From Oscillospiraceae bacterium (GTDB taxonomy: Bacteria; Bacillota; Clostridia; Oscillospirales; Oscillospiraceae): a stretch of DNA of 42,428 nucleotides. The stretch spans positions 1-42,428 of the forward strand of contig JAFQFC010000036.1 of assembly GCA_017415775.1 (NCBI GenBank), given 5' to 3'. Positions 18,059 to 40,564 of this stretch are shown in pieces. Position numbers and translations under genes: made by a program. How positions within the stretch are numbered: the stretch's first letter is position 1; the number at the start of each line of letters is the position of its first letter. A model generated the notes under the pieces. The model searched no databases. It saw only the letters and a program-made list of their open reading frames with translations, and had not been told where the DNA came from.

Positions 18059-18073
18059 GATTTTCTTTTCCTC

Positions 18074-18111: not shown

Positions 18112-18148
18112 GGAGCCAAACAGTGTTCATCGTTTCCTAACGAAGAAC

Positions 18149-18233: not shown

Positions 18234-18291
18234 CCCACCCAGTTTCTTGCGATTCTGTGCAGTTCAAAGGGTCTATTCAGTTGACGAAGTT

Positions 18292-18446: not shown

Positions 18447-18773
18447 ATGCCCCGCAAAGCCTTTGATACGCTGTCCGAGCCCATGTTTTACGTGCTGATG
18501 GCGCTGCGCTGCCGCAGTCTGTGCGGTGCAGAGATCGTGGAGTGGATCCAAAAGAAAACCGATGGCCACATCGTACTGGGTCCCGGCACGCTGTACACCA
18601 TCCTCCCCAAGCTGGCAGACGAAGGCGCTATCCGGGAAATCAGCGCCGAGGGACGCCGCCGCAGCTATCAACTGACCGACAAGGGACAGCAGATGTTTGC
18701 CGCCGAATGTGACCGCCTGCGCCGCTGCATTGCGGATGCTGAGAGCGCAAGTGAGGAGGAATCGCTATGCTGA
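18447..18773 (+). CDS. PadR family transcription regulator
   Basis: This 108-residue PadR-type winged helix protein has 'MFYVLMALRCRSLCGAEIVEWIQKKT' (about 13-38) and the recognition region LGPGTLYTILPKLADEGAI (about 44-62). The wing residues 'RRRSYQLTDKGQQMFAAE' follow. Most PadR proteins are ligand-responsive dimeric repressors. The two palindromes in its promoter imply autorepression. GGAGG lies ten bases before the ATG. The stop overlaps the next gene by 7 bases, so the PadR-DUF2812-DUF2812 genes form one operon in which the repressor probably controls the membrane proteins. Confidence 0.92.
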   Translation: MPRKAFDTLSEPMFYVLMALRCRSLCGAEIVEWIQKKTDGHIVLGPGTLYTILPKLADEGAIREISAEGRRRSYQLTDKGQQMFAAECDRLRRCIADAESASEEESLC

Positions 18774-19948
18774 AACTGAATCCCTACTACACCTATCAAA
18801 TCGATGCCATCGAAAGCTGGCTGGACGAGCAGGCGCAAAAGGGCCTGTTTCTGGACGACTTGGTGGGAAATCTCTTCTCCTTTGTTAAGGGCGAGCCGAA
18901 GCAGGTCCGCTACCGCATTGATCTGAAAGATGGCGTCAACTATACGGAAGATCAGGCACGTATTGCCGACTATCGGGAATTTGGCTGGGAATATGTCTGC
19001 GAGCTGAGCAGTCACGCCGACATTTATGTGAGCCACGATCCCACCGCTGTCGAATTGAATACAGACGAAGAAACACTCCACGACGTGCTGGATTCCCTGT
19101 TAAAGCGAGAGATCGCCGTCGGCATCGTGGGCACGGTCCTTGTCCCCCTGCTGTGGCTTTACAATCTCTGGCCCGACACAAAGGGATATTACGGCGTCTA
19201 CGACAGCATCGTCAACGGACTTTCCCCGTTTTTGACCATCTTCACCGTCCTTTTGATCCTCACCTGGACCATCCCCATGGCGCTGCATTTGTGGGACGCC
19301 GTACAAACCCGCCGCCGTATGCTGCTGGATCGAACCTATCACACCGACTCCCGGGCCAAGAAGCGGCAGGCACTGCACCGCTCCGTTCTTGCCACAGCGC
19401 TGCTGATTCTGGTGTCCGTCGGCGTACTTTGGGGCTACACGCAAAGCGGCACCGACATCACCGCCGAAGAATTCGGCCCATCGATCACCGTTCTGTTCCC
19501 CGGCCACCAGCCCGCTTCTTTCCGGCCGCACACCAACATTCCGGATGAAATGTTCCGGAAGAGCAGCATGCCGCTGAACCGCACGATCTATGGCCGTCAG
19601 TGGGGGCGGGAGATTTTGAACGCCGATGCCTTTGACCTGCGGCAGACGTGGACCTACAACGCCGACATGGAGCATGTATATATCCAATGGCTGGCAGAAA
19701 AGTACGCCGCCGAACAGGCAGAAGTTAAGGGACTTGAACCTGTTGCCTTCCCCGATTGGGAAAATGCGTGGTTTGCCGTGCGAACAGACGATAGCGAGAG
19801 TCCGACAGTTTTCTCCCAGCAGCTGGTACTACAAAATGGTAAGGATGTCTGGTCGTTCAGTTACTGGACCTATGACGAAGCACCGCAGTATGACCTGCTG
19901 TCCGCCGTAAAGGCCTATTGGCAGGCAAATCCCACCCACATCGGATAA
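18767..19948 (+). CDS. DUF2812 membrane protein (copy 1)
   Basis: This 393-residue protein has an N-terminal DUF2812 domain (about 6-100), with YQIDAIESWLDEQAQKGLFL, 'FVKGEPKQVRYRID' and 'FGWEYVCELSSHADIYVS'. Three membrane helices follow (about 116-135, 151-175 and 205-224). The C-terminal segment of about 165 residues is presumably outside the cell. DUF2812 genes are regularly paired with PadR regulators in Clostridia, and their role is not established. The start overlaps the padR stop, with GAGGAGGA just upstream. The next gene is a paralogue with the same layout. Confidence 0.88.
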   Translation: MLKLNPYYTYQIDAIESWLDEQAQKGLFLDDLVGNLFSFVKGEPKQVRYRIDLKDGVNYTEDQARIADYREFGWEYVCELSSHADIYVSHDPTAVELNTDEETLHDVLDSLLKREIAVGIVGTVLVPLLWLYNLWPDTKGYYGVYDSIVNGLSPFLTIFTVLLILTWTIPMALHLWDAVQTRRRMLLDRTYHTDSRAKKRQALHRSVLATALLILVSVGVLWGYTQSGTDITAEEFGPSITVLFPGHQPASFRPHTNIPDEMFRKSSMPLNRTIYGRQWGREILNADAFDLRQTWTYNADMEHVYIQWLAEKYAAEQAEVKGLEPVAFPDWENAWFAVRTDDSESPTVFSQQLVLQNGKDVWSFSYWTYDEAPQYDLLSAVKAYWQANPTHIG

Positions 19949-19960
19949 GGAGGTGTTTTT

Positions 19961-21073
19961 ATGGCAACCGTTGCAAAGCTTCTTCCCTACGAGCTCTGGG
20001 AGATCGACGCTGTGGAAGGCTGGCTGGATGATATGGCCTCACAGGGCCTGATCTTCACCCACAACAGCGGCGGACAGTTCTACTTCCGGGAGGGCGAACC
20101 GCAGAAACTGCGGCATCGGCTGGATTTCCGGGAGAAGCACTGGAGCCACAGCAAAGAGCGCCGCCAATTCTTCGAGGACTGCGGCTGGGAATACCTATGC
20201 TATGTTGACGACCGCACTGACCTCTACCGCACGGCACGGCCCGACACCGTGGAAATCCACACCGATGAATCCATACTGGAAGAGATCATGGGCAAGTATG
20301 TTCGTCGGCAGAAAATCGTGCTGCTGGTCTGTCAGATCCTCCTGCTGCTGACGCTGGCCTATGTTGTTTGGAAATGCTGTACCTACGGGTTCTTCCCCTC
20401 CCTGCTGACCAACGGATTCTGGGACTTCTTTACAATTCCATTGTGGCTGTTTATCGCTGTTTTCGGCGATATCCGTTTGTGGCGTTCCTTCCGGGACATC
20501 AAGCGCCGTGCCCTGCTGGAGCGCAGCTACCACACCCGGGAACGTGAGCAGAAGCGCCGCCGGGAACAGCGGATCGACTTCATCGTTCGATTGGTGATTG
20601 TTGTACTGCTGGCGTTGGATCTGTTGCAGCCCAATCAGTACGCCGCCGAACATCTTCCATGGGAGGGCAGCGGCTACGAGGGCTACAGCATCCATCAGGT
20701 GCTGCCCGAAGATGCGGGTGATGATCAGCGAACCGACCTTTTCTGTTGGAATTATCCCGCCGCCCGCCGCCTCTTTCAGGACGAAAAAACCGCTGACGGC
20801 AAGTGGAACTATGAGGTGAAGATTTACGAAACAGAATCCGACTGGCTGGCACGGTGCTATGCCCGGGAGCAGGCCCGCCTGGCAGGCGCCCAGTCCATCA
20901 CCGTACCGGGACACGACACCGCATGGTTCTTTATCGGCACGCCCGTGAGCCAGCGCCACCGTTACGAAGCTCCGGACACGCAAAATCTCCTGCTGCTGCG
21001 AGGCAACGTCGTGATCGAGATCGCTTACCTCGGCTCTGCCGACCTGCGCTCTGCCGCAGAAACCATGGGATAA
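19961..21073 (+). CDS. DUF2812 membrane protein (copy 2)
   Basis: This 370-residue paralogue of the preceding gene has DUF2812 at about 9-98 (YELWEIDAVEGWLDDMASQGL, 'FREGEPQKLRHRLDF', 'CGWEYLCYVDDRTDLY'). Membrane helices lie near 117-137, 151-170 and 207-223. A basic linker with 'LLERSYHTRE' is also present in copy 1 ('LLDRTYHTDS'). The C-terminal domain (about 225-370) is diverged between copies. AAGGAGG precedes the ATG; the gap to copy 1 is 12 bases. A heteromeric membrane sensor is one possibility, but nothing in the sequence proves it. Confidence 0.87.
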   Translation: MATVAKLLPYELWEIDAVEGWLDDMASQGLIFTHNSGGQFYFREGEPQKLRHRLDFREKHWSHSKERRQFFEDCGWEYLCYVDDRTDLYRTARPDTVEIHTDESILEEIMGKYVRRQKIVLLVCQILLLLTLAYVVWKCCTYGFFPSLLTNGFWDFFTIPLWLFIAVFGDIRLWRSFRDIKRRALLERSYHTREREQKRRREQRIDFIVRLVIVVLLALDLLQPNQYAAEHLPWEGSGYEGYSIHQVLPEDAGDDQRTDLFCWNYPAARRLFQDEKTADGKWNYEVKIYETESDWLARCYAREQARLAGAQSITVPGHDTAWFFIGTPVSQRHRYEAPDTQNLLLLRGNVVIEIAYLGSADLRSAAETMG

Positions 21074-24404: not shown

Positions 24405-25862
24405 TTAATTGGCAATGCCGTGATGCACGGGTGCCGTTCCCGGTGTGATCGGCGCCAGCACGTAGCCATTGGCTTTGGCGTAATTGATGATGTCCTGCAG
24501 CGCATCCACCGTGGTCTGTTTACCGCCGGCATCGTGCATCAGCACCACATTGTTGCGTCCGGGACGCAGTCCCTTGACAACGGCGTTATAAATCTGGGTC
24601 TTGGTCCGCTTCGTGGCGCTGGCATCGCCGCTGGACACGTTCCAGTCAAAGTAGGAGAAACCTTCCTGCTGCACCCGGGCTGCCAGACGGGTCATGATGC
24701 CCTTATTATACGAAGCACTCACCGTGTTGGAGCTGCCGCCCGGGAAGCGGATAATGGTGGCGTTGTAGCCGAAATCGGCCAGCAGCCGATCACGCAGCTT
24801 GTAAATATTCTGCATGAAAGCCTCGTCGCTGGCGTAGATCTTGGCATAGTCATGCGAATATCCGTGAATGGCCACTGTATGACCTTCGTTGATCATCCGC
24901 TGCACCAGATACTTATTGCTGTTGGAGTAGCTGATAATAAAGAAGGTTGCCTGCACGTTGTTGGCTTTCAGAATATCCAGTACCTGCGGTGTCACATTGG
25001 CGCTGGGGCCATCGTCAAAGGTGAGGTAGACCCGATTTTTCGGATTGGGCTCATAAGTATAGACCTTGACGGTGCGCTGCACCTCTGTGCGGTTGCCGCC
25101 GCCGTCGCTGACAGTGTAGGTCAAAGTATATGTGCCGGTCACAGAAGTATTCACGCTGCCGCTGACTTTGACGGCGGAGGTCAGGTCACCGTCCACATCG
25201 TCACTGGCGCTGTAGCCGGGATCCTTGAAGCTGCTGCCTACGGTAACATAGACCGACGTATAACCCTTCAGGGCAATGGTGGGCGGCACCACGTCCCGGA
25301 TCAGCAGGCGCCGCTGAACCGTTGCCTCGTTGCCGGCGGCATCGGACACCGTATACGTCAGGGTAATGTTCTTGCCCTCACCTGTCTCCTCTTCCGTTTC
25401 GGTAACAACCACCCTGTCGGTCAGATCGCCGTCACAGCGGTCCAGCGCAGTAAAGCCGGGTTCTTCATAGAGCTTCCTTGCAGAGATCCGCATTTCCGCA
25501 TCGCCGACCAGTTCCAGCGCAGGAACCTCCCGATCCACCACGGAAACCATCCGCTGTACCGTATAGGTTTTCCCCTTTACATCAATTGTGTAAGTGAGGG
25601 TATAGTCTCCGGGGACAGTCGTGTCCACAGCACCGTCCACCACTACCTGATCCAACAGATCCGTTTTGCCCTTCCGGGCCGTGACACCGGGGTCATCATA
25701 ATCGCTGTGGGCATCGATCACCACCGTCTCCTCACCGTTCAGCAAAAGCTGCACCGAGGGAGCCAGCACAAAATAGCCTCTCTGCACGCTCAGCAATCCC
25801 ACAACCAATGCCGCCACCAGCACAACGCCGACAGCGGCCCAAGCAATGATCTTCTTATTCAT
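24405..25862 (-). CDS. Membrane-anchored polysaccharide deacetylase with Ig-like repeats
   Basis: This protein of about 485 residues has an N-terminal membrane anchor (about 5-25). Three Ig-like DUF5011/HYR-type repeats follow (about 35-110, 115-190 and 195-268), each with a 'DPGVTA/EPGFTA/DPGYSA' element and a 'TYTVSD'-type strand. The NodB domain is C-terminal: TFDDGPS (about 282-288), HGYSH (334-338), RFPGG (373-377), DWN (407-409) and LMHD (442-445). The metal Asp and both His of HxxxH are present. It probably deacetylates peptidoglycan or another wall glycan outside the membrane. The second of two adjacent ATGs (25862) has the better spacing to GGAGGG. Confidence 0.9.
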   Translation of the reverse strand: MNKKIIAWAAVGVVLVAALVVGLLSVQRGYFVLAPSVQLLLNGEETVVIDAHSDYDDPGVTARKGKTDLLDQVVVDGAVDTTVPGDYTLTYTIDVKGKTYTVQRMVSVVDREVPALELVGDAEMRISARKLYEEPGFTALDRCDGDLTDRVVVTETEEETGEGKNITLTYTVSDAAGNEATVQRRLLIRDVVPPTIALKGYTSVYVTVGSSFKDPGYSASDDVDGDLTSAVKVSGSVNTSVTGTYTLTYTVSDGGGNRTEVQRTVKVYTYEPNPKNRVYLTFDDGPSANVTPQVLDILKANNVQATFFIISYSNSNKYLVQRMINEGHTVAIHGYSHDYAKIYASDEAFMQNIYKLRDRLLADFGYNATIIRFPGGSSNTVSASYNKGIMTRLAARVQQEGFSYFDWNVSSGDASATKRTKTQIYNAVVKGLRPGRNNVVLMHDAGGKQTTVDALQDIINYAKANGYVLAPITPGTAPVHHGIAN

Positions 25863-25891
25863 CATGACCCTCCGTAAGTTTTCTTTTCTCT

Positions 25892-27666: not shown

Positions 27667-28716
27667 TTACTTTTGCAAAATACTCGTCATGTGGGCGGCA
27701 AACCGATCCAGTCGGGTCTCCACACCGCCCAGCTGTTTGGCAGAACCGGGATCGTGGGCGGTTTCCATCATGCAGAATTGCGCAGGCAGCGTCACCGTCT
27801 TATTGAAGCACAAAGCGCCCATCAGCTGGCGGGCCACCAGATCGCTGCCGGAATAGCCGGAAACCACCACGCCGAATAGGTATTTATCCGTCAGTTCCTG
27901 CTGCACCAGCAGGTTGGTCATGCGGTTGAACAGGGCCATAATATTGGCGCTGACGGCGTCATTATAGTTCGGACAGAGGAACAGCATGGCGTCACAGTCC
28001 CGGATGGCCGGCAGCACTTCCTGCGAAATGGCACCGCCGTAGAAGCAGGTGTCACTTTGAGCGAAGTGCAGGCAGGCAGCGTAGGAACAGCCACGGCAGT
28101 CATGGATCGTGCCGTTTTGCAGAGAGATCTCACGGGAGATGAAATTCTCCGGCAGGCGGGCCAGCAATTCCCGACCCAGCCACACCGTATTGGAGCGTTT
28201 GTTGTCCGAAGCATGGATCATCAGCACACGGGGATTGTCAAAGCGCAGCGGCTCATACGCCAGCAGGCGGGATACCAGATCCCGGGCACGGGTGAAATAA
28301 GTCTCCTCCCAGCTCAGGTCCAGACGGCGGGCCAGAATATGCTGGTTATATAGAGAGCCCGTACCTTCCACCAGCGGCTTGCCCAGGAACGTGCAGCCGG
28401 CCATATTGGCGCTGAGCACCAATTCCTGCGCCGCAGACTTGGTATACAGCTCGTCGCTGCCATCCACGATCACCGCAGCCGTGCTGCCACGCAGGCAGTC
28501 ACCATTTCCACGCAGAAGGCGCAGCGTACGAAGGAAGCTTTCCTCCACACCCAGCGCATCCACCGCCACAGCAAAGAGGATCCGTGCCTCATAAAGGCCG
28601 CAGGACAGGCCGTCCGGCGGCAGGAAGGTCACTTCCCTGCCTTCCAGCGCATAGCGCAGCAGGCGATCCATGCGCTCGCTGCTGCCAAGGCGCACCACAT
28701 ACAGGCCGCCGCTCAT
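27667..28716 (-). CDS. Flavodoxin-like protein with four-cysteine motif (third gene of the fusion operon)
   Basis: This 349-residue protein has an unassigned N-terminal domain (about 1-155). A flavodoxin-fold, FMN-reductase-like C-terminal domain (about 160-349) follows, starting 'RVLMIHASDNKRSNTVWLGR'. C207-x2-C210-x4-C215-x8-C224 sits where iron-sulfur flavoproteins hold their compact cysteine motif, but the spacing differs, so cluster binding is uncertain. 'FLCPNYNDAVSANIMALFNRMTNLL' corresponds to the second FMN loop. Its ATG overlaps the LDH-like gene's stop (ATGA) with no strong ribosome site, so translation is coupled. A redox partner of the LDH-like protein is likely by context; the substrate is unknown. 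Confidence 0.75.
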   Translation of the reverse strand: MSGGLYVVRLGSSERMDRLLRYALEGREVTFLPPDGLSCGLYEARILFAVAVDALGVEESFLRTLRLLRGNGDCLRGSTAAVIVDGSDELYTKSAAQELVLSANMAGCTFLGKPLVEGTGSLYNQHILARRLDLSWEETYFTRARDLVSRLLAYEPLRFDNPRVLMIHASDNKRSNTVWLGRELLARLPENFISREISLQNGTIHDCRGCSYAACLHFAQSDTCFYGGAISQEVLPAIRDCDAMLFLCPNYNDAVSANIMALFNRMTNLLVQQELTDKYLFGVVVSGYSGSDLVARQLMGALCFNKTVTLPAQFCMMETAHDPGSAKQLGGVETRLDRFAAHMTSILQK

Positions 28717-29939
28717 GCGTAATCAAACTCACGCAGCGTGCGGCGAGTTTCCTCCAGGCGGGCGAGCAGCGGCTCGCAGATCGGTTCACGGCACAGGGAC
28801 ACACCGTGTTTTGTCATGCAGTTCAGGCAGCCAAAGTAGACCCCGCCCAGCGGCACGGCGCCATAGTGTGGCTCGCCACGCACCAGACGCAGCAGCGACA
28901 CGGCGGCCGAGGACAGACCCGGCGCAATATAAGGCTTGAAGCCCAGCTCACGCACCTGCAGATTGGCGGTGCGGGTCAGGTCGGTCAAGCGACGGGACAG
29001 CTCGTCATCATAACCGTCGCAGGCTGCGTTGGCCACGATCAGGCCCTGACCGTGAGGGCCGTAAACACGGAGGGCTTGGACATCTGCCCCCTCCTTTTCG
29101 GCGTAATAGGCAGCACGGGCCGCCATCACGCCCAGACCGAAGCCCTGTACCTGCTCGGGCAGGAGACCGGCAAAGTCGAAGCTGCCGTCTTCTGCACGGT
29201 TGGAAGCGAGAAAAACTTCACGGGACAGGTGATCCACCGGGTCGGAAACCTGACAAAAGAGGCCGGCAAAGCCCGCTTCCCGGGCTTTTTTCGCATAAAC
29301 GCCCAGCATGGCACGGTTGGCGGCAAACTGCGCCATCCGCACATCCTGCACGCCGCTGTTCAGGCCGGGAACGCCACGGGAGGCAGTGAAGACAAAGAGG
29401 TCACAGTCAAAGAGACGCTCTTCCGGGCAAATGGTTACCTTGGGGACGGTTCCGCCGGGATGCTCCGGCAGCACCTGATTCATCTCCATCTCATAACGGC
29501 GGCACATGGCTTCGTTGGGATCGTAGACGGCGATCTCGTCGATCTCACGGCCCAGCAGTTTCAGCCCTGTCAGCACCGTACCACCCACATCGCCAAGGCC
29601 AACCAGCGTCACACGAAAGCCGTGGGTTTTGGGGAAAAGAAACCGGGGCAGCAGCTCAAACAGACGGCCAAAAGCCACATTGGCAACGGTAGCGCCGTTT
29701 TCGGCAATGAAGCGGGCCAATTCTCCCTCTTCCGCCCCGTCACAGGGCGTCAGGCAGCGAACCGTTTCCTCTTCCCACACTTGCGCAAGAGAACGGACGG
29801 CCCAGATGCCACGGGAAGTCAAACCATCCCGGCGCACCAACAGCACCAGCGGCGCAAAGGGACCTTCCGCTGCCACAGCATCGGCAGGAAACAGATCTTC
29901 ATCGCTCCACAGACACAGGTCATTCCAGCGTTTGAACAC
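28713..29939 (-). CDS. LDH/MDH-like NAD-binding protein with C-terminal cysteine cluster
   Basis: This protein of about 408 residues has an N-terminal region (about 1-108) not seen in ordinary lactate dehydrogenase. A Rossmann fold follows ('VTLVGLGDVGGTVLTGL', Gly-rich loop about 117-123; Asp in 'AVYDPNE' for the ribose). Weakened LDH/MDH landmarks are VSDPVDHL where LDH has NPVD, and VYGPHGQG where LDH has the catalytic His in GEHG. The C-terminus holds C374-x2-C377-x8-C386-x4-C391 (numbered from GTG 29948), a possible metal or Fe-S site. GTG 29939 is preferred over GTG 29948 because AAGGAG lies 8 bases before it. It is the middle gene of a three-gene operon. Confidence 0.72.
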   Translation of the reverse strand: MFKRWNDLCLWSDEDLFPADAVAAEGPFAPLVLLVRRDGLTSRGIWAVRSLAQVWEEETVRCLTPCDGAEEGELARFIAENGATVANVAFGRLFELLPRFLFPKTHGFRVTLVGLGDVGGTVLTGLKLLGREIDEIAVYDPNEAMCRRYEMEMNQVLPEHPGGTVPKVTICPEERLFDCDLFVFTASRGVPGLNSGVQDVRMAQFAANRAMLGVYAKKAREAGFAGLFCQVSDPVDHLSREVFLASNRAEDGSFDFAGLLPEQVQGFGLGVMAARAAYYAEKEGADVQALRVYGPHGQGLIVANAACDGYDDELSRRLTDLTRTANLQVRELGFKPYIAPGLSSAAVSLLRLVRGEPHYGAVPLGGVYFGCLNCMTKHGVSLCREPICEPLLARLEETRRTLREFDYA

Positions 29940-29944
29940 AGCTA

Positions 29945-32900
29945 TCACTCCTTTTCCCGGCGGGAGATCCGGCGGATCTGCCGCAGGTCCTCTGCCAGAT
30001 ACGCAGAAGCCGGCAAACTGAAATCGTAATGCACGCAGTCACCCTTATCCGGCAGGCGAGGCTGCTGCAGCGCCTCACCCAAACGGCGCAGCGTCAGGGA
30101 TGTGTTGAAGATGCGCTGATGGCGGCGCTCCAGCGTCTGCATGATCTCCCATGCGTTCTCCAGCGCTACACGGCTGAAGTTGCGCAGGGCAGCATCGGTG
30201 ACATCGGTCATAAAATAGGGGTAAAAATACGGCAGGATCAGGTTAATGGAGGGCAGCATATGCTCGGTCATGGTCTGCCGGCCCACACTGTCACCGCCCA
30301 CGAAGGGATACAGCAGGCTCTCGTTGAGCCAATAGCGCAGATTGGGGATGAAATACTCGCACTCCGCCTGACGGCCTTGCGCCTGCATCAGGTCCTTGCC
30401 GTTGCCGGACATGATGCCCACCACGATACGGTCGATGGTCAGCTGTTCTTCACGGAACACACGATCCAGCTTGTCGATGCGGTAGCCTTTGTGGAGGAAA
30501 TCATCCACCAGCAGAATGGGTCTGCGGAAGGAGCGCAGGGTCCGGGCCTGCGTATGCAGCTGAGAATAGCCGGGATACTCCACGATCTCAAAGGTACCGG
30601 TCTCCGTATCAAAGCGCTTTTCCACATGGAGCGTCTTGGTGACGGTATTGGGAACAATCTCGTTGGAAAGGATCTTGCCGTAGGGCACGCACATATAGGG
30701 GCCCAGACGGCGGACACCGTCAGGCACGTCCTGCACGCCGTTGTCGCGCTGCACCTGTTCCATCACCGCCTGATTCAGCATTTCCGAGTCGAAACACAAC
30801 ACCAGCTGGCCGGGGAACATGCGGTTCAGCGCACTGCGCAGCCGGGGGCGAGTCCGCATCACGGCGGACTTCACCTCATCGTCATCCTGATGGGGCTTTT
30901 TCAGCCACAGCAGCACATCCTGCAGCAGCATCACCGGCGCACGCATATCCACACAGAAAATATCCTCGCAGTCCTGTACCGGGGCGAAGCCCAGTTGGAT
31001 CAGGGCGTCACGCAGCGCCTCGTCTTCCTTGCCGCAGCGGCACAGCGCATAGGTATGCTCCCCCTCCAGGCTGCGGGCCAACAGTTCGTTGAGGATACAG
31101 CGGCACTGTTCGCCGCTGCGCAGGCCAATGATCTCCACCGCATCCACCATCAGGATGCGGCCGGAAGCATAGCGGCGTACATAGCGGGCGGCTTCCAGCG
31201 AATGCAGTACATCGTACAGATCGGCCGCACGCAGCGTATGGCCCACCGCCCAGCCCAGAAGCGTATCGGGACGAGCATTCAGCGTCACGGCCAAAGGCTT
31301 GGACACCGAACCGATCACTTCGTTCAGTGCCGTCGGCAGCGCAGCATTCACCTCATGGAAGCGGCCAAAGTACAGGTCCTGAGGTTTCATTACATTCTTC
31401 AGTTCCTGCGAACGGACATAGAGGCCGTAGCCATAGATGAAGGATTGAACCACAGGGTCTACCAGCATGGAGATATCCAGCTTGCGGTCGATGTATTCAC
31501 GAATGCGGGTGGAACTGACCGATTCGAAGAAAGGCGGTAGGGACAAAACCTTCAGTTTGCCGTGGATGGTCTCCTGCAGCGAAGTATGGTCCGCCTTTCG
31601 GGCGCTGTTGCGGCAGAAAACAATATGGTTATACTCCGCCGCACCGCCCGGCTGCGGGATGCGGTAGGCCGAAGCGTTTTCAATCACATCGCTGCCTGCC
31701 ACCAGATACAGCTCACGATCCGGCAGCAGTCGGGCCAAATGCGCAAGATCGTCAGGCATGGCAATGTTGACGGGGATCTCATCGGGGAACAGATAGGTAT
31801 CCCACTGGTCGGCCACCGAAATGCTGACGATCTGTCGGCGCAGCAGCTTGGGCAGCGGCATCTTGGACCAGGAGAATTCGTCCACCGCCAGATAGACCTC
31901 AAAGCCCAGCTTGCGGATCTCTTCCACGATCTGCTTATGGCCCAGGGAGAAGGGGTCAAAGGTGCCCGGGAAGAAAGCGACAGGTTTGGGCGGCAAAAAG
32001 ACGAAACGTCCTTGCTCCACCTCCACGCCCACGATAAAGCGGTAGAGATGGTTGAGCATGGCGGCGGAATTGAAGAAGGTCAATCCGCCTTCACGGGGCT
32101 CCGTCAGCACCGTCAGCAGTTTTTTGTGCAGCCGCACGAACATAGCAGCACGGCGATGCAGGAAAATACGATCGTCGCTCAGCACATCACGGCACAGCAC
32201 CGCCAGCGCCGTCTGGTGAATGGTGGGATCATAGTGGCAGATGCCTGTCATCAGCAGACCCAGCGTGCGATCGATCATCCGATCTTCCCGCTCGGGCAGC
32301 GTGTTCAGCATTTCGCCCACCACATGCAGTGCCACACGAGCCGGACGCACAGCGCTGCCGTGGACCAGATCCTCCAGGAAGGATTCCGCTTCCCACATTT
32401 CCTTCTCCGGCAGCATACACATCAGCCGTCCCAGATAGGGCGGGATCACATAGGAGATCTCGTCCTGCCCCGTTTCCAGTTCACGCAGCAGGTCAACGGT
32501 GATCTCATTGATATGGTCCACCGACAGGTAGGGTGCGATCTGCAGCAGATGCTTACCGGCAGACTGACGCACGGGGAAATGTTCGCTGACGGACAGCACG
32601 TTGGAAAGGTGCATGGCCGTGTGCAGCGCCGTTTCCGGGTGGGAGCGCACATGGTCGCACAACATGTCGATCTGGGTCATCTTCACCGTCCAATGGACGG
32701 CACTTTTCAGGTTGCTCAGGTAAATACGGGAGGCGCCCTCCTCATCCAGCGTGTCGAGGCGGCAGCCGATGGCACGGCGCTTCATATACGCCAACACCTC
32801 GCTGTCGGCATAGAGGGTCGGGTCGAAGGAATCGAGGATCTCCTCCACCCTGTCGCTGACCTCCGTGTGGCGGCGCAGCTTTTCCATGCAGTGCAGCGCC

Positions 32901-34636
32901 GTCAGCTGCAGGCGGGTTTCGCCATCCTGCAGCATTTTGCCCATGGTCTCCACAATGGACAGGCGGTGCTCCTCAGGGATATGGACGTAGGGCACCATGG
33001 TCAGCGCATCGGCCAGCACAAAACGGTCTGCCCCCTCCGCCGTGTAGAGTCGGCGCAGCAGCGCCTCTGCCATGGGACGGGATTCCTTGGGATCTACGTT
33101 TTCAAACAGCGTCTCGCACAGCGTTTTCAAGCTGTTGGAGATGCGAAGGGCATGCTTGGGCGCAATTTTACGGTCAGGATGCAGACATGCCTCGATATAG
33201 CTCTCCCACAGCTCCACGGACTCATCCAGCAGCGCCATCATGGTAGGCGTCATGACTCCACTGTCACGGGCGCCGCTGGGCCGCTCCTTGCGGTACTTGG
33301 GGCCGCTGTTGGCCAGGATCCGGCCCATGATCTGTCCGGCAACACGGCGCACATCGCCGTCGGGATGCATCAGCAGCTCGTACAGCAGCAGCAGCGTCTT
33401 TTTCTTATTGGACTTGGTCATGTAGGTGCTGTATTCCTGCAGCAGCAGCAAATAGGTGCGGATGCGCTGCAGATTTTTCTCACCCTTGGCCTGCTCCAGC
33501 AGCTGGTCGAAGGAAAGGTCGGTACTGATGGTCTTCATCAGGCGGATGGAGCCGGACAACGCCATGCTGCGCAGCGCCTGCAGCGCATCTTCCGCCGACA
33601 GGAGCGAGGCATCACGCTGATCGGGAGACAGCAGCTCGTCGGCGTCCATATCGGTGGGGACACCCATGGAACGCAGCATCAGCTCAAAGTCACGCAGCTT
33701 ATAGTACACCGTCTGGTAGCGCTTGGCCTTCTCCGGCGTCATGTCATAGAGCTTGGAGAAGATCATCTCATAGGCCTGCGCCAGTGTGTATATGCAGATC
33801 TTTTCCTTGCCGTCTTCGCCCCGGGTACCACGGACACGGAAGTCGGCATAGATCAGCAGCAAGGACTCCACCGGCAGGTTCTCAAACTCCAGATCCCAGG
33901 TGGAGTGGTTGGCCGACACATGACCGATCTCCTCTATATCATGCTGGTTGAACCACTGCCAGGTATAGTAATAATGCAGATACGGGATGCGGCGGGCGTC
34001 ATCGCCACGGCAGCCGAACTTGCCCACATCATGACCAAAGGCGGCAGCGCTGACCAGCGGCAGATCCACATCCAGACCGGCCTTCTTTGCCAGAATGGCC
34101 GTATGCAGCGCCACATTGTGGACGCCGATGGTATGGGACGCCGGGTCAAAGGGGCGGATCTCACGGCTGATGCGCATCAGCGGCAGCACATGGGCCGCCA
34201 CAATGGCACGGTGGTAGCGATTGTACTCCTCCGCCACACGACTGTCGCGCAGCGCACTTTCATCAAAGGGCAGCACATCTGTCAGAGGCTCAAACGCCGT
34301 CAAATGCTGGCTCAGCACCTGCACCAATACCGTCAGGTACAGCTGCTCGTCATCGGACAGCGGGCGGGCAGGATGCGCCTCATCAGGGAACATATTGTCG
34401 CTGAGTCGGTCACACAAAGCGCTCAGCCAGACGTGCAGGTCTTCGGGCTGCTGCTCCATCACACCGGCGCACTCCTCCAGTACACGCAGGCAGGCATCGG
34501 CATCGTGGCCGCCAATGGATTCCAGCGCCGCCATGCGACTGTCACTATCCAGCAGCACCGCCGCAGCGTCTACCGTTTCTGCCAACTGTGCCAGCGCACG
34601 GCGCAGGTCTTCGTTTCTGTAAATCATATCACTCAT
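29945..34636 (-). CDS. Multidomain HD - helical repeat - NadD-like nucleotidyltransferase - GNAT-like - PRTase-like protein
   Basis: This 1563-residue protein would be cytosolic, as no signal or membrane segments are seen. An HD domain lies at about 165-265 (H173; H202-D203 in FGHDVGKFG; H244). A long helical, HEAT-like region runs from about 390 to 840. A NadD-type nucleotidyltransferase occupies about 885-1076, with GTFDPFSLGH at 891-900, 'LVAGSDVIENASAYRIP' and SSTRIREYI at 1041-1049. A GNAT-like segment lies at about 1110-1225 ('ILMVDAVEIIGLRSGEQ', 'DEALRDALIQLGFAPV'). A phosphoribosyltransferase-like domain with ILLVDDFLHKGYR, a PRPP-loop-like motif, is at 1374-1386. GAGGTG precedes the ATG. 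It is first in the operon with the LDH-like and flavodoxin-like genes. Activity is unproven; the nucleotidyltransferase motifs are the strongest evidence. Confidence 0.8.
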   Translation of the reverse strand: MSDMIYRNEDLRRALAQLAETVDAAAVLLDSDSRMAALESIGGHDADACLRVLEECAGVMEQQPEDLHVWLSALCDRLSDNMFPDEAHPARPLSDDEQLYLTVLVQVLSQHLTAFEPLTDVLPFDESALRDSRVAEEYNRYHRAIVAAHVLPLMRISREIRPFDPASHTIGVHNVALHTAILAKKAGLDVDLPLVSAAAFGHDVGKFGCRGDDARRIPYLHYYYTWQWFNQHDIEEIGHVSANHSTWDLEFENLPVESLLLIYADFRVRGTRGEDGKEKICIYTLAQAYEMIFSKLYDMTPEKAKRYQTVYYKLRDFELMLRSMGVPTDMDADELLSPDQRDASLLSAEDALQALRSMALSGSIRLMKTISTDLSFDQLLEQAKGEKNLQRIRTYLLLLQEYSTYMTKSNKKKTLLLLYELLMHPDGDVRRVAGQIMGRILANSGPKYRKERPSGARDSGVMTPTMMALLDESVELWESYIEACLHPDRKIAPKHALRISNSLKTLCETLFENVDPKESRPMAEALLRRLYTAEGADRFVLADALTMVPYVHIPEEHRLSIVETMGKMLQDGETRLQLTALHCMEKLRRHTEVSDRVEEILDSFDPTLYADSEVLAYMKRRAIGCRLDTLDEEGASRIYLSNLKSAVHWTVKMTQIDMLCDHVRSHPETALHTAMHLSNVLSVSEHFPVRQSAGKHLLQIAPYLSVDHINEITVDLLRELETGQDEISYVIPPYLGRLMCMLPEKEMWEAESFLEDLVHGSAVRPARVALHVVGEMLNTLPEREDRMIDRTLGLLMTGICHYDPTIHQTALAVLCRDVLSDDRIFLHRRAAMFVRLHKKLLTVLTEPREGGLTFFNSAAMLNHLYRFIVGVEVEQGRFVFLPPKPVAFFPGTFDPFSLGHKQIVEEIRKLGFEVYLAVDEFSWSKMPLPKLLRRQIVSISVADQWDTYLFPDEIPVNIAMPDDLAHLARLLPDRELYLVAGSDVIENASAYRIPQPGGAAEYNHIVFCRNSARKADHTSLQETIHGKLKVLSLPPFFESVSSTRIREYIDRKLDISMLVDPVVQSFIYGYGLYVRSQELKNVMKPQDLYFGRFHEVNAALPTALNEVIGSVSKPLAVTLNARPDTLLGWAVGHTLRAADLYDVLHSLEAARYVRRYASGRILMVDAVEIIGLRSGEQCRCILNELLARSLEGEHTYALCRCGKEDEALRDALIQLGFAPVQDCEDIFCVDMRAPVMLLQDVLLWLKKPHQDDDEVKSAVMRTRPRLRSALNRMFPGQLVLCFDSEMLNQAVMEQVQRDNGVQDVPDGVRRLGPYMCVPYGKILSNEIVPNTVTKTLHVEKRFDTETGTFEIVEYPGYSQLHTQARTLRSFRRPILLVDDFLHKGYRIDKLDRVFREEQLTIDRIVVGIMSGNGKDLMQAQGRQAECEYFIPNLRYWLNESLLYPFVGGDSVGRQTMTEHMLPSINLILPYFYPYFMTDVTDAALRNFSRVALENAWEIMQTLERRHQRIFNTSLTLRRLGEALQQPRLPDKGDCVHYDFSLPASAYLAEDLRQIRRISRREKE

Positions 34637-34681
34637 TTTGCACCTCGCAAACGAGAATTGGCGTGTTATCCCAACACAGAT

Positions 34682-34687
34682 ATTATA
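34682..34687 (-). promoter_or_regulatory. Candidate -10 for the three-gene fusion operon
   Basis: A perfect TATAAT lies on the minus strand about 46 bases before the start. No good -35 sits at 16-18 bases. A second -10-like TATAGT lies just upstream. The promoter is not certain. Confidence 0.4.
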
Positions 34688-34746
34688 CCGAATTTACTAT
34701 ACCACAGACTGATGGCAATAGCCAGTCTTTACCATAACTTTTACAG

Positions 34747-34787
34747 CAAAAAAACAAAGAGAACAGCCGTGGCTGTCCTCTTCGTTT
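34747..34787 (-). terminator. Terminator of the larA-glycerate kinase operon
   Basis: On the minus strand, AAACGAAGAGGACAGCC pairs with GGCTGTTCTCTTTGTTT, followed by TTTT. Confidence 0.78.
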
Positions 34788-34795
34788 TCATCTCT

Positions 34796-35917
34796 TTATC
34801 TTGTCAGCAGGCGCACAATAGCATCCATCGTGGCTGCAAAGTTCTCTTTTGTCTTGTGGCGTGACACAGAAAAATCCTCCGCCCGGCGGTTGATGCTGAA
34901 TACCGAGGTAACGCCCAGATCGTAAGCACCCTCTGCCCCGTCGCCAACGCTGCCCACCACAGCCACCACCGGCACATGCTGCGCTGCGGCACGGCGTGCA
35001 ATGCCTATGACCACCTTGCCCCGCAGACTTTGGCTGTCCAGCTGTCCTTCGCCGGTAAAGACCATGTCGGTCTCGCCCAGCAGGTCATCAAAGCCCACGC
35101 AGTCCAGCACCGTCTCAATGCCGGATTTCAGGCTGCCGCCCAGAAAAGCCACCACACCTGCGCCAAAGGCGCCGGCAGCACCGGCACCCGGGATATCGGC
35201 AACGTTTCGGCCGCTCTGTCGCTGCATGACATCGGCCAGGTGGCGCAGTCCATCATCCAGACGTTCCACCATAGCTTTGTCAGCCCCCTTCTGGGGGCCG
35301 AAAATATAGGCTGCGCCCTGCAGTCCATACATGGGGTTATCAATATCGCACATGGCCGTGATCCTGCAGCCGGCAAGAAGCTTCTGCGCCGCAGATACAT
35401 CATAGTCATCGATCATATGCATCGTTGCGCCAGTCGGTGTAAAGCAATTTCCCTTCGCATCGAAAAACGCAACACCCAGCGCAGCAGCAGCGCCGGTACC
35501 GGCATCGTTGGTGCAGCTGCCGCCCAGTCCCAGCACGATCTCCCGGGCGCCGTGCTCCACGGCATGACGAATGATCTCACCTACGCCGCAGGTAGTGGTC
35601 AGGGACGGATCCTTTCGCTCGCCCACCATAGGCAGGCCGGCCGCCTGAGCCATTTCCACAAAGGCAGTATCCCCATGGACGGCATAGCAGGCTTCCACCG
35701 GCTCACCCCACGGACCGGTAACGGTCACGAACACCTTCTTCGCCTGCAGCGCATGGACAAAGCAGTCCACCGTTCCCTCGCCGCCATCGGCCACGGGAAT
35801 GGTCAGCACACGGCAGTCGGGCAGATGCTTTGCGATCACTTCCCTGCCCAGTTCGCAGAACTCCACGGCAGAAAGGGTACCTTTAAAAGAATCAGGGATC
35901 AAAATACACTGTTTCAT
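34796..35917 (-). CDS. glxK: Glycerate kinase
   Basis: This is a 373-residue glycerate kinase of the GlxK/GarK family (normal length about 375-380), phosphorylating D-glycerate to 2- or 3-phosphoglycerate. Signatures are 'ILIPDSFKGTLSAVEFC' at the N-terminus, 'PVADGGEGTVDCF', 'FVEMAQAAGLPMV', and the glycine-rich LGLGGSCTNDAGTGAAAALG (about 128-147). 'FTGEGQLDSQSLRGKVVIGIARRA' lies toward the C-terminus. AAGGAGC lies about ten bases before the ATG. It is 24 bases downstream of a larA-family gene, suggesting that the racemase feeds it. Confidence 0.94.
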   Translation of the reverse strand: MKQCILIPDSFKGTLSAVEFCELGREVIAKHLPDCRVLTIPVADGGEGTVDCFVHALQAKKVFVTVTGPWGEPVEACYAVHGDTAFVEMAQAAGLPMVGERKDPSLTTTCGVGEIIRHAVEHGAREIVLGLGGSCTNDAGTGAAAALGVAFFDAKGNCFTPTGATMHMIDDYDVSAAQKLLAGCRITAMCDIDNPMYGLQGAAYIFGPQKGADKAMVERLDDGLRHLADVMQRQSGRNVADIPGAGAAGAFGAGVVAFLGGSLKSGIETVLDCVGFDDLLGETDMVFTGEGQLDSQSLRGKVVIGIARRAAAQHVPVVAVVGSVGDGAEGAYDLGVTSVFSINRRAEDFSVSRHKTKENFAATMDAIVRLLTR

Positions 35918-35941
35918 GTTGATTTGCTCCTTTTTTCCGCC

Positions 35942-37219
35942 TTACGGAAGAACAATGACGCCCACACCGTCGGGGATGGCGGTAATGGAGACCTCTTCTC
36001 TGCCCAGCATGCGGCGTGCCAGCGTCAGCGCTTCTTCGATGGAGTGGGCCGGTGTCATATGCAGCTGCTCTACCAATACATCTTCGGCGTCGGAGATGTA
36101 AATCACACGGGCACGCTGCAGAATACGGATCATGATCTGGGCCTGCCACTGGTCCGGCAGCGTTTCTCCTCTGCCCCGACTCAGAATATCGGCCATCAGC
36201 GCATCCATGTCGTCGCCGGCCATCAATTCCCGGCAGAAGGCTTCGCCGCCGTGGCCGTCATTGGACTTGGCCAGCATGATGATCACGCCGCCTTCTTTCA
36301 CGGTGGCTTCTGCCGCCGTCATCCCCTTCACCGCCTGATAGATGTTCTGGTCAAGGGGGTATCCGCCGTTGGTGGTGATGACGATGTCAGCCATGGCAGC
36401 CTTCACGCCGCACAGGCCTTCCAAAAATGCACAGCCTGCTTCGTGGGCTGCTTCTATATCACCGGCCACGGCGTGGATGGTCTCCTTCTCGCCGTTGAGA
36501 ACCACGTTGAGGATGAATGCCAGGCCCGCTTTCCGGGCAGCCCACACCATATCGCAGTGGATGGGATTATCCCGCAGACTGCCGGCACGGGAGGCCGGGT
36601 GGTCGATAAACTCAGCGCAATGGTTGGCCAACACCGTGCTGCGGCCTGCCACACCGGGCAGCACCGCCTTGCGGCTGCCGGAATAACCGGCGAAGAAATG
36701 CGGTTCAATAAAGCCCTCGGACACCAACAGGTCTGCCTCGCAGGCCAGACGGTTGACCCAACACTCGCCGCCGGAGGGCAGTATACCCAGCAGCACCATG
36801 TTGGCCGTATCGTCGCAGTCGTGGATCACGATCTTCTCCCGGGCCACGATGTCCTCGCCAAACTTGGCCACCAACTCCTCACGGGTCGTCTCACGATGGC
36901 AGCCGGTGGCGATGAGAATGGTGATCTCCGCCTCGGGATTGCCGGTGCGGATCTCCTGCAGCAGCGCCGGCATCAGCAGCTTGCTGGGGACAGGGCGGGT
37001 ATGGTCGCTGGCGATGATGGTCACCTTTTGCTTTCCACGGCTCAGTTCCCGCAGGGGCAGTGAGCCAATGGGGTTCTCCAGCGCACGGCGCACCAGCGTC
37101 ACATCATCGGTGTCGGGCCGATAACTCTCCAATTCGGAGGTCAGCACGGCTTTGATCTGCTGCTTGGGAAGTGCGGCAGACATAACACCTTTACCGTAAG
37201 GAAATTGCAGATGAGTCAT
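35942..37219 (-). CDS. larA: LarA-family nickel-pincer 2-hydroxyacid racemase
   Basis: LarA racemises lactate using a covalently bound nickel-pincer nucleotide. The 425-residue protein retains the catalytic set at the same numbering as the L. plantarum enzyme: DHTRP (72-76), H108 (GCHRE), H174 (EPHFFAGYSG), K184 (SRKAVLPG) and H200 (LANH). Related family members act on other 2-hydroxyacids, so lactate is not assured; a glycerate kinase directly downstream makes glycerate a reasonable candidate. The start at 37219 follows AAAGGAGG. The cofactor genes larB, larC and larE are not in the window and must lie elsewhere if the protein is active. Confidence 0.88.
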   Translation of the reverse strand: MTHLQFPYGKGVMSAALPKQQIKAVLTSELESYRPDTDDVTLVRRALENPIGSLPLRELSRGKQKVTIIASDHTRPVPSKLLMPALLQEIRTGNPEAEITILIATGCHRETTREELVAKFGEDIVAREKIVIHDCDDTANMVLLGILPSGGECWVNRLACEADLLVSEGFIEPHFFAGYSGSRKAVLPGVAGRSTVLANHCAEFIDHPASRAGSLRDNPIHCDMVWAARKAGLAFILNVVLNGEKETIHAVAGDIEAAHEAGCAFLEGLCGVKAAMADIVITTNGGYPLDQNIYQAVKGMTAAEATVKEGGVIIMLAKSNDGHGGEAFCRELMAGDDMDALMADILSRGRGETLPDQWQAQIMIRILQRARVIYISDAEDVLVEQLHMTPAHSIEEALTLARRMLGREEVSITAIPDGVGVIVLP

Positions 37220-37253
37220 AAATACTCCTCCTTTGGGCTTCATTTGAGAAGAA

Positions 37254-37910
37254 TCATTGCTTTTTTGTAAAACGAAGAGCCGCAAGGTACAGTAGAACGA
37301 GGCCTATGCTGAGCAATACGCCGCCGATGATATCCGTCAGCCAATGGACACCGGAAATCAGTCTGCCGATGACCATAAACGCCGTAAAGGCAGCCAACAT
37401 CACCTGCACGCAATTCTTGCGCACACCTGCTTTCATCCGCCCATGCAGCTGCAGCATAACGCTGGGCATCACGCACAACACCAGCATGGTGGTGGAAGAA
37501 GGATAAGATGCCTCCAGAACGCCATTGATCAGCACAGGGCGATAGTTGACGGCCAGCTTCTCAAAGAGAACGAACACCGCCAACACCGTAACGTAGAAAC
37601 CGCCCAGCACCAGAAGATCGCCGTCCACCTTCCGCAGATCCTTTCGACGGATCAGCTGCACCAAACCCAGCAAACCGAAGGCCGCCACGCAGCCCAGCGG
37701 GATCACACTCAGGGTGTCCGTCAGGTCGTACAGCGCCATATGCACGCCGGTCAGCTGATGGAACGCTCCGTTGATCCCGGCAAAGCCGACGGCAGAGTTC
37801 GCTGGGCCGATGGGCTGCACATTTACAAGAGAAACCACCACCGTCCACAGCACAAAGGCTGCCAGCAGACACAGGGCAAGGGTCAAATATTTCTTCGCTT
37901 CATTTTTCAA
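37254..37910 (-). CDS. PAP2-superfamily membrane protein with altered motif 2
   Basis: This 218-residue protein has about six membrane helices. PAP2 phosphatase motifs are visible: K118...R124-P125 (KLAVNYRP) and the third motif GRLISGVHWLTD (R183, H189, D193). In motif 2, the normal Pro-Ser-Gly-His is replaced by YPSSTTM (136-142), so the acid/base histidine is missing. It may be inactive, a different enzyme, or a binding protein. The start codon is TTG 37910, with GGAGGACC upstream; no in-frame ATG is nearby. It ends 34 bases before larA and may be cotranscribed with it. Confidence 0.8.
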   Translation of the reverse strand: MKNEAKKYLTLALCLLAAFVLWTVVVSLVNVQPIGPANSAVGFAGINGAFHQLTGVHMALYDLTDTLSVIPLGCVAAFGLLGLVQLIRRKDLRKVDGDLLVLGGFYVTVLAVFVLFEKLAVNYRPVLINGVLEASYPSSTTMLVLCVMPSVMLQLHGRMKAGVRKNCVQVMLAAFTAFMVIGRLISGVHWLTDIIGGVLLSIGLVLLYLAALRFTKKQ

Positions 37911-38733: not shown

Positions 38734-40407
38734 TTAGAACAGGCCGGTGATCTTGCCGGTCTCGTCCACGTCGATCTTCTCGGCAGCGGGAACCTTGGGC
38801 AGGCCGGGCATGGTCATGATGTCGCCGGTCAGAGCCACCAGGAAACCGGCGCCGGCGCTGACCTTCAGGTTGCGCACGGTGACGGTAAAGCCACGGGGAG
38901 CGCCCAGCAGGGCGGGATCGTCGGAGAAGGAGTACTGGGTCTTGGCCATGCAGATGGGCAGGTTGCCAAAGCCGTTGGCTTCCAGCTCAGCCATCTGCTT
39001 GCGGGCGTTGGCCGTCAGGGCCACGCCGTCGGCATGGTAGATCTTCTTGGCGATGGCGTTGAGCTTGGCCTCGATGCTCTCTTCCACGTCATAGGCGAAG
39101 GTGAAGTTGGACTCCTGCTCGCACAGGCGGACCACTTCCTCAGCCAGAGCCATACCGCCCTCGCCGCCCTTGGCCCACACCTCGCTCAGAGCCACGTTGA
39201 CACCCAGCGCACGGCACTTATCCTCCACCAGCTTCAGCTCAGCGGCGGTGTCGGTGGGGAAAGCATTGATGGCCACCACGCAGGGCAGACCGTAGACCTG
39301 CGTGATGTTCTCCACATGCTGCAGCAGGTTGGGCAGGCCCTTCTCCAGGGCCTCCAGATTCTCGTTGTTCAGCTCAGCCTTGGGCACGCCGCCGTGGTTC
39401 TTCAGAGCACGGACAGTGGCCACCACCACAACAGCGGCGGGAGTCAGGCCGGCCAGACGGCACTTGATATCCAGGAACTTCTCAGCGCCCAGGTCGGCAC
39501 CGAAACCGGCCTCGGTGACGCAATAGTCGGACAGCTTCAGAGCGATCTTGGTTGCCATGACGCTGTTGCAGCCGTGGGCAATATTGGCGAAGGGGCCGCC
39601 GTGGATGAAAGAAGGCGTACCTTCCAGCGTCTGCACCAGATTGGGCTTCAGGGCATCCTTCAGCAGAGCTGCCATAGCGCCCTCGGCCTTCAGGTCATGA
39701 GCGGTGACAGGCTTGCCGTCGAAGGTGTAAGCCACCACCATGCGGCCCAGACGGGCCTTCAGGTCAGGAATGTCGGCGCTCAGGCACAGAACGGCCATGA
39801 TCTCGCTGGCCACGGTAATGTCGAAGCCGTCCTCACGGGGCACGCCCTGCATGCGGCCGCCCAGACCGTCGATGACGTTGCGCAGCTGGCGGTCGTTCAT
39901 ATCCACGCAGCGCTTCCAGACGATGCGCTTAACATCGATGCCCAGGCTGTTGCCCTGCTGAATGTGGTTATCCAGCATAGCAGCCAGCAGGTTGTTGGCA
40001 GCACCGATGGCGTGGAAGTCACCGGTGAAGTGCAGGTTGATATCCTCCATAGGCACCACCTGTGCGTAGCCGCCGCCGGCAGCGCCGCCCTTGACGCCAA
40101 ACACGGGGCCCAGAGAGGGCTCACGCAGAGCCACCAGGGTATTCTTGCCCAGACGGCGCAGACCATCGGCCAGACCAACAGTGGTGGTGGTCTTACCTTC
40201 ACCGGCAGGAGTGGGATTGATGGCGGTGACCAGGATCAGCTTGCCGTCTTTGCGGTCGGTCTCCCGCAGCAGGTTATAGTCGATCTTGGCCTTATACTTG
40301 CCGTACAGCTCCAGATACTTCTCATCCACACCGGCGACTTGGGCGATCTCGGTGATGGGACGCATGGTACAGGCCTGGGCGATCTCGATGTCGGTCTTGA
40401 ATTCCAT
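38734..40407 (-). CDS. fhs: Formate-tetrahydrofolate ligase
   Basis: This enzyme condenses formate and tetrahydrofolate with ATP to give 10-formyl-THF for purine synthesis and one-carbon flow. The 557-residue protein is full length. It has 'SDIEIAQ'-like N-terminal residues ([14 protein letters not shown]), the P-loop [12 protein letters not shown] (about 63-74), '[36 protein letters not shown]', and the C-terminus 'ITGLF'. The start at 40407 follows GGAGGAATACATT; the frame upstream passes through the riboswitch and is not coding. It is controlled by a ZTP riboswitch. The neighbouring purL and the micro-fhs frame suggest an ancestral purine/one-carbon cluster. Confidence 0.97.
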
Positions 40408-40448
40408 AATGTATTCCTCCGTTTTTTCTGTTGTGGCGTCCTTCCTGT

Positions 40449-40486
40449 AAAAACAAAAAGGACGCACTACAATGTGTAGTACGCCC
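40449..40486 (-). terminator. Attenuator of the ZTP riboswitch
   Basis: On the minus strand, GGGCGTACTACA pairs with TGTAGTGCGTCC (12 pairs), followed by TTTTTGTTTTT. Its 5' arm starts with the GGGC of the aptamer's conserved CTGGGC, so ligand binding and terminator formation exclude each other, implying an ON switch. Confidence 0.85.
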
Positions 40487-40558
40487 AGACGGTCGGCAAT
40501 AGCGGTGTTCCGCAACTGTACTCCGTGTGGTTATTCCACTTCCGTCAGTCATACAGCC
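40483..40558 (-). ncRNA. ZTP (pfl) riboswitch upstream of fhs
   Basis: The minus strand shows GACTGACGGAAGTGG-AATAA-CCAC, then ACGGAGTACAG, a short hairpin with GCGGAACACCGC, and GCCGACCGTCTGGGC, the two conserved halves of the pfl/ZTP aptamer. It senses ZMP/ZTP, which accumulate when 10-formyl-THF is short, and is expected to raise fhs expression. Confidence 0.88.
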
Positions 40559-40564
40559 AACTTA

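Follow-up and report, generated by a model that had tools for sequence, protein, structure and literature searches.

Within the window analysed here, a 42,428 nt stretch of contig JAFQFC010000036.1 from the Oscillospiraceae bacterium assembly GCA_017415775.1, three genes termed g1, g2 and g3 are arranged head to tail on the minus strand, with a 4-base overlap of stop and start at both joints. The first, g1 (29945..34636, 1563 aa), recognized as an open reading frame (ORF) with homologues, encodes a fusion of HD, HEAT, NadD-type, GNAT-like and phosphoribosyltransferase (PRTase)-like parts; g2 (28713..29948, 411 aa) encodes an oxidoreductase of the lactate/malate dehydrogenase (LDH/MDH) superfamily with an extra N-terminal part of ~100 aa, and g3 (27667..28716, 349 aa) a flavodoxin-like, NADPH-dependent FMN reductase. 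The overlaps and the conservation of the arrangement suggest that g1-g2-g3 form an operon. On the plus strand, an open frame of 1100 aa runs antisense to g1 (31562-34864); it is taken as a composition effect and not as a gene.

The trio is inherited as a unit and constitutes one module. Among 391 Clostridia genomes, the g1 profile was found in 32, the g2 profile in 31 and the g3 profile in 30; in the 317 good genomes each of them occurs in 24, and these are the identical 24, the g2 and g3 profiles being built from trio members and applied with a strict threshold that leaves remote relatives outside the trio uncounted. Two genomes with incomplete sets are both cut by contig ends; G234 retains g1 alone, and g3 is missing from G296. 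In 43 loci from 40 genomes, the direct order g1-g2-g3 is observed 37 times, including L068, which is counted via profile search as the gene caller overlooked its g3. In L058 and L059, four or five genes stand between g1 and the g2-g3 pair, L071 stops at a contig end inside g2, and the remaining three loci are lone g1 copies. When spacing is measured on first-start ORFs, g1 and g2 lie at most 100 bases apart in 35/39 cases, and g2 and g3 in 37/38. Over the 37 loci, the pairwise distances of g1, g2 and g3 show correlations of 0.86 to 0.94, with 0/2000 permutations as high, although such a correlation is also expected from shared descent alone. Since order and adjacency are kept in 37/43 loci and the catalytic residues are near-invariant in 43 g1 homologues, the recurrence exceeds chance.

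Co-occurrence of the three genes had been raised in an earlier, purely sequence-based annotation of this locus (the original prediction) for Oscillospiraceae; the linkage is stricter and wider than this family. The ordered trio also occurs in four additional loci: L100 comes from Acetoanaerobium noterae NZ_CP154629, a 2.6 Mb record catalogued as a plasmid, L221 and L222 belong to two genomes that lie outside the class, and in L223 g1 is truncated by a contig end. The distribution is patchy: g1 occurs in 4/299 genomes of a phylum sample, and long g1 matches are found in 13/32 genomes of the same genus (the own genome included) vs 0/28 others. The genes flanking the trio vary between lineages. 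Identity among 14 aligned g1 homologues, one of which ends at a contig end, ranges from 80 to 35%.

Domains of g1

When the whole g1 chain is searched against Pfam, the cut-off is passed solely in the nucleotidyltransferase part. This NadD/NMNAT-type domain (residues 884-1080; 31397..31987, minus strand) adopts the nucleotidyltransferase fold, with NadD and NMNAT as the closest solved structures, and matches the canonical NadD profile with an E-value of 1.7e-19. Its signature, GTFDPF..GH at residues 891-900 and SSTRIREYI at 1041-1049, had been called intact, and it is near-invariant in the 43 g1 homologues over which conservation was scored: F893, D894 and P895 are kept in 43/43 and the second His in 42/43, and, within ISSTxIR, both Ser (S1041 and S1042) and the final Arg (R1046) in 41/43 each. 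In contrast to this catalytic signature, the acceptor side is altered. PPHK, YTxDT and GxD..W, which are found in 14, 13 and 18 of 18 canonical NadDs, occur in 0/43 g1 homologues, whereas SWSK and GxD[VI]xxxASxY are present in 40/43 g1 homologues and in 0/18 canonical NadDs. Because the signature is near-invariant and the canonical motifs are exchanged for family-specific ones, the ATP side and catalysis look retained and the acceptor side remodelled, yet constrained.

The domain is distinct from the housekeeping NadD. The best g1 reaches 59.4 bits against TIGR00482 (cut-off 112.45) and that of the window 30.8 bits; one member attains an E-value of 4.5e-16, and every g1 listed stays below the cut-off. 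Canonical NadD and YqeK, both above their cut-offs (TIGR00482 and TIGR00488), are present in 18/18 genomes tested, 13 of which carry the trio; in the window's own genome, they share one 437-aa frame on contig C6. Since this housekeeping pair is already in place and the canonical acceptor motifs are missing from g1, the product of the NadD-type domain is probably not nicotinate adenine dinucleotide (NaAD).

The lone g1 copies are informative in this respect. Three genomes, G212, G255 and G366, each contain a trio (split over contigs in G255) plus a second g1 that lacks g2 and g3 (L072, L079 and L085, respectively). SWSK and GxD[VI]xxxASxY are missing in these three paralogues only, and ISSTxIR is damaged in them (the trio member L027 also deviates, at the Thr), while they retain the HD ligands and D1378, G1384 and R1386 of the PRTase-like part. 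As copies without g2 and g3 also lose the NadD motifs, it is suggested that g2 and g3 depend on the NadD step or act in its service. The three paralogues adjoin a conserved gene of ~310 aa that is read divergently and is APH/fructosamine-kinase-like according to Pfam in the two cases tested.

The assignment of an HD domain to residues 160-320 (33677..34159, minus strand) is supported by a six-ligand dinuclear motif, H168..H202-D203..H221..H244..D265, of which all ligands are kept in the 42/42 g1 homologues that can be read here (one of the 43 lacks the HD part). Of the residues proposed originally, H202-D203 thus stand; H173 is rejected as a metal ligand, as it is conserved in 35/42 only and H168 takes the first position. 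Pfam HD matches 22/25 g1 members (best 5.3e-6), with the window's own g1 at just 0.032. The two additional His between HD and D, H221 and H244, are YqeK-like; according to PMC8177086, such an extended pattern distinguishes YqeK, a dinuclear phosphatase and diadenosine tetraphosphate (Ap4A) hydrolase. In the structure models, the region is helical and of low confidence (predicted local distance difference test score <50 over residues 204-249).

The long helical region noted before proves to be a HEAT/ARM-type alpha superhelix (residues 348-880; 31997..33595, minus strand), a scaffold according to both profiles and models. It fills the structural match lists; HD or PRTase chains are not among the 50 matches listed per model, which has no bearing on either fold. 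The models were built from 7 sequences only, and the HD and PRTase parts are poorly modelled for this reason: the NadD-type, HEAT and GNAT-like folds are seen in the models, whereas HD and PRTase are assigned by sequence. The chain is flanked by variable N-terminal helices (residues 1-124; 34265..34636, minus strand; 0/124 invariant columns) and by C-terminal helices (residues 1481-1563; 29948..30196, minus strand; 4/83 invariant columns), both seen as helices in the models.

The segment previously described as acetyltransferase-like (residues 1088-1233; 30938..31375, minus strand) indeed adopts a GNAT fold in the model. Its coenzyme A (CoA) pyrophosphate loop, [RQ]xxGx[GA], is present in only 3/43 g1 homologues vs 20/26 control GNATs, and 2/165 columns are invariant; an active acetyltransferase is therefore unlikely. 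Among the many structural matches of this fold are TacT and AtaT, toxins that act on tRNA.

For residues 1246-1480 (30197..30901, minus strand), a type I PRTase-like assignment is supported by profile relations and by an invariant NTxTK loop followed by an atypical phosphoribosyl pyrophosphate (PRPP) loop, (L/I)VDDxLHxGxR, which in the window reads ILLVDDF..GYR (residues 1374-1386). N1330, T1331, T1333, K1334, D1378, G1384 and R1386 are kept in 43/43 g1 homologues. Pfam Pribosyltran (PF00156) is matched by 19/25 g1 members (best 6.7e-4), the window's own g1 not being among them, and PRTase_2 (PF15609) by 3/25. The PRPP-loop resemblance noticed at the outset is thus upheld as a family relation, in a loop that departs from the type. 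Owing to this atypical loop and the low-confidence model, the transferase activity of the putative domain is unproven.

The redox proteins g2 and g3

Both redox proteins belong to the families to which they had first been ascribed. Aligned to LDH/MDH with hhalign, g2 reaches an E-value of 2.1e-12 over 276 columns, and its profile matches in the PDB are 2-hydroxyacid dehydrogenases (5.4e-7). The Rossmann loop, GLGDVG (residues 117-122; 29583..29600, minus strand), is of the NAD type: G119 and G122 are kept in 39/39 homologues, G117 in 28/39 and the acidic D143 in 35/39. R204, R278 and H299, which we take to be equivalent to LDH R109, R171 and H195, are kept in 39/39. At the positions of the catalytic Asp168 and of Asn140, all 39 homologues carry Met and Asp, respectively; canonical LDH/MDH match [LF][DE]..R in 10/10 cases, and g2 thus has the His but not the Asp of the catalytic His-Asp pair. 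The two replacements would fit an unusual substrate or cofactor. The N-terminal addition is absent in L069 and L077.

For g3, the cut-off of FMN_red (PF03358) is passed with 1.2e-15, and a profile search of the PDB returned nothing at 1e-3. Its four-cysteine motif, C207-x2-C210-x4-C215-x8-C224 (28045..28098, minus strand), is a candidate iron-sulfur site; the four cysteines are invariant in 38/38 homologues, and g3 probably holds an iron-sulfur cluster.

Surroundings of the trio

A comparison of the neighbours across loci revealed no common function. Leading into g1 on the minus strand (34796-37285) are genes for a LarA-type racemase (Lar_N/LarA_C, 35942-37285) and a glycerate kinase (34796-35917), perhaps a glycerate racemase-kinase pair; downstream of the trio, a SpoIIP gene lies on the opposite strand. 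Between g1 and g2-g3 of L058 and L059 are genes for an ammonium transporter and three glutamate-synthase-type proteins (according to Pfam on L058). A local feature of L059 is an FMN riboswitch (3067-3185, plus strand) at the start of the second gene upstream of g1, which codes for an energy-coupling factor (ECF) transporter; in L058, the gene that directly precedes g1 codes for the homologous transporter (Pfam).

Elsewhere in the window, a ZMP/ZTP riboswitch (40476-40562, minus strand) is located at the start of a formate--tetrahydrofolate ligase gene (38734-40515), and a glycine riboswitch aptamer (one match; 18143-18234, minus strand) upstream of a Na:alanine symporter gene (16637-18130). 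Two tandem DUF2812 proteins are encoded at 18767-21073 (plus strand), preceded by a 108-aa ORF (18447-18773), and a polysaccharide deacetylase with several bacterial Ig-like surface domains at 24405-25865 (minus strand).

Presumable chemistry and known systems

The reading that we favour, tentatively and at somewhat less than even probability, is that the adenylyltransferase and the HD hydrolase of g1 make and turn over a nucleotide other than NaAD that is served by the two redox partners. The chemistry that we infer for the trio could proceed in the following manner: The PRTase-like domain may make or bind a mononucleotide acceptor. The NadD-type domain would then adenylylate, with ATP as the AMP donor, a phosphorylated acceptor distinct from nicotinate mononucleotide (NaMN), yielding an AMP-linked dinucleotide, and the dinuclear HD domain may hydrolyse the pyrophosphate product, either for proofreading or for turnover, as YqeK does with NadD products. 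The HEAT superhelix presumably bridges the two ends and offers a docking site for the partners, g2 and g3 would make, reduce or use the resulting nucleotide, and the GNAT-like domain probably has a structural or ligand-binding role. Synthesis and turnover of a nucleotide for both redox proteins, as put forward in the original prediction, stays the most economical inference; the observation on which it was built is confirmed, whereas the pathway is partly supported, since the CoA loop is missing from the GNAT part and the PRTase loop deviates from the usual one. In a more far-reaching and fairly improbable version, the trio would make and use a new AMP-linked dinucleotide redox cofactor, with a PRTase-like step on a non-nicotinate base, addition of AMP by the NadD-type domain, recycling or proofreading by HD, and g2, with Met in place of Asp in its active site, and the four-cysteine flavoprotein g3 as dedicated oxidoreductases.

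Several observations weigh against the favoured reading. The motif comparison drew on 18 canonical NadDs that all stem from these genomes, and that PPHK, YTxDT and GxD..W line the NaMN pocket is our assumption. The lone g1 paralogues form one clade with full support, and the decay of their NadD signature is therefore probably a single event. A scan of 12 sources found no riboswitch immediately in front of g1, and no shared neighbour points to a ligand. The similarity of the HD part to YqeK is weak in local hhalign (E-value 8.5e-4, probability 24%) and absent in global mode (0.2%); the TIGR00488 matches at an E-value of 0.01 include no g1 locus, so that a relation at the level of the YqeK family was not found, and the best PDB profile match is the HD-GYP protein 4mcw (E-value 0.0059). 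An HD-GYP protein, PmGH, is covered in PMC8177086. As to the PRTase-like part, D1379 is kept in 39/43 and H1382 in 32/43 g1 homologues (replaced in 4 and 11, respectively), and the loop is HxGxR-like and without the usual TGxT. The hhalign score to a 25-member PRTase group, 5e-5, covers just 46 columns around the PRPP loop; smaller PRTase groups score 0.0014, 0.017 and 0.29, with a GNAT control at 0.0068. Finally, this part is poorly modelled, with block means of 27 to 69 over approximately residues 1280-1480.

The alternatives differ mainly in what the NadD-type and HD domains would act on. In NAD homeostasis, g1 would be a divergent adenylyltransferase for NaMN or nicotinamide mononucleotide, combined with a NaAD/NAD pyrophosphatase, and would act as a NadR-like switch on the NAD supply of the two redox enzymes. 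The nearest solved structures, the NAD-type Rossmann loop of g2 and the precedent for a NadD-HD pairing in NAD synthesis agree with it, and the NAD route had also been the original proposal. This route is not supported in view of the canonical NadD and YqeK in 18/18 genomes and the lack of the acceptor motifs in g1; moreover, NadC is not depleted in trio genomes (15/24 vs 21/56 others, p 0.05 in the other direction). We regard NAD homeostasis as unlikely. Replacement of NAD precursors was rejected: because NadC occurs in 15/24 trio genomes, the trio is not a general stand-in for a missing de novo route. Alternatively, the two domains may make and degrade an alarmone-like dinucleotide (e.g. ApnN), the level of which is sensed or set by the redox proteins. 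The six-ligand motif shared with YqeK, an Ap4A hydrolase, the HD-GYP match, the HEAT scaffold and the patchy distribution are all compatible with such a signal module, but no sensor or output domain was recognized, the acceptor-side residues are family-specific rather than relaxed, and two strictly linked redox enzymes suit metabolism better, which makes signalling rather unlikely. Modification of macromolecules, with the NadD-type domain AMPylating RNA or protein, or the module otherwise modifying them, and HD acting as the eraser, could draw on the TacT and AtaT matches and on the fact that HEAT repeats often bind macromolecules; this argument from fold similarity faces a CoA loop missing in 40/43 homologues and no recognized RNA-binding domain, and the idea is quite improbable.

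Two further candidates were tried and rejected. A role in serving the nickel-pincer nucleotide cofactor of lactate racemase is suggested by LarA, two genes upstream, and the glycerate kinase, which precede g1 on the same strand. However, LarA does not track the trio (9/24 trio genomes vs 22/56 others, p 1.0, the 9 less complete genomes all being among the 56), trio genomes without LarA exist, and of 47 trio-family loci, some of them cut by contig ends, just the window and L087 have relatives of both this LarA and this kinase in the vicinity of g1, and L088 one of the kinase alone, such that this role is scarcely credible. An anti-phage defence operon, for which patchy distribution and nucleotide-acting domains might speak, is highly improbable: the sole PADLOC match, Cas11 over the GNAT part (E-value 0.012), is weak and judged a chance hit, none of g1, g2 and g3 matched PHROGs, the C-terminal half of g1 has no match in the phage collection, and of 46 pattern stretches for the PRTase part in viral contigs none was confirmed. 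A phage origin was dismissed on the same searches.

Should the NadD-type domain take a different acceptor, many Clostridia would possess a second pyridine-nucleotide-like route parallel to NAD synthesis, equipped with proofreading and two redox enzymes of its own, and the product would be a new cofactor or signal. Even in a mundane case, partners and key residues are now named for a protein of ~1600 residues. No description of the trio was found in the open-licence PubMed Central (PMC) literature, judged by title or abstract start.

Each component has known relatives from which it departs. With the LDH/MDH superfamily, g2 has in common the Rossmann loop and residues equivalent to R109, R171 and H195; it differs by Met for D168, Asp for N140 and the N-terminal addition. 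For g3, the iron-sulfur flavoproteins of the Isf type serve as comparison: it matches FMN_red and shares a compact four-cysteine motif, but with the spacing C-x2-C-x4-C-x8-C and an added N-terminal half. The usual PRPP loop of type I PRTases (PF00156) is DDxxxTGxT, and PRTase_2 is linked to Ter operons; g1 resembles both in its hydrophobic-DD loop and the upstream Lys-bearing loop, and differs from type I PRTases in having HxGxR for TGxT and a long C-terminal part unmatched to known PRTases. With canonical NadD (TIGR00482), the g1 domain shares the fold, FDP and ISSTxIR, while it remains under the family cut-off and lacks the three acceptor-side motifs.

Of the known arrangements, the NadD-YqeK fusion comes closest to g1. 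In contrast to this fusion, the HD domain of g1 is N-terminal, with the HEAT superhelix in between, the acceptor-side motifs differ, and g1 has additional GNAT-like and PRTase-like parts, is strictly tied to two redox genes and coexists with canonical NadD and YqeK. As in JCVISYN3A_0380, a NadD-type adenylyltransferase and an HD hydrolase with the six-ligand motif of YqeK are united in one chain (PMC9426524). In JCVI-Syn3A, NaAD and its analogues with a wrong base are hydrolysed by the YqeK domain of this fusion (PMC9426524), which provides a precedent for a single chain that both makes and proofreads a dinucleotide.

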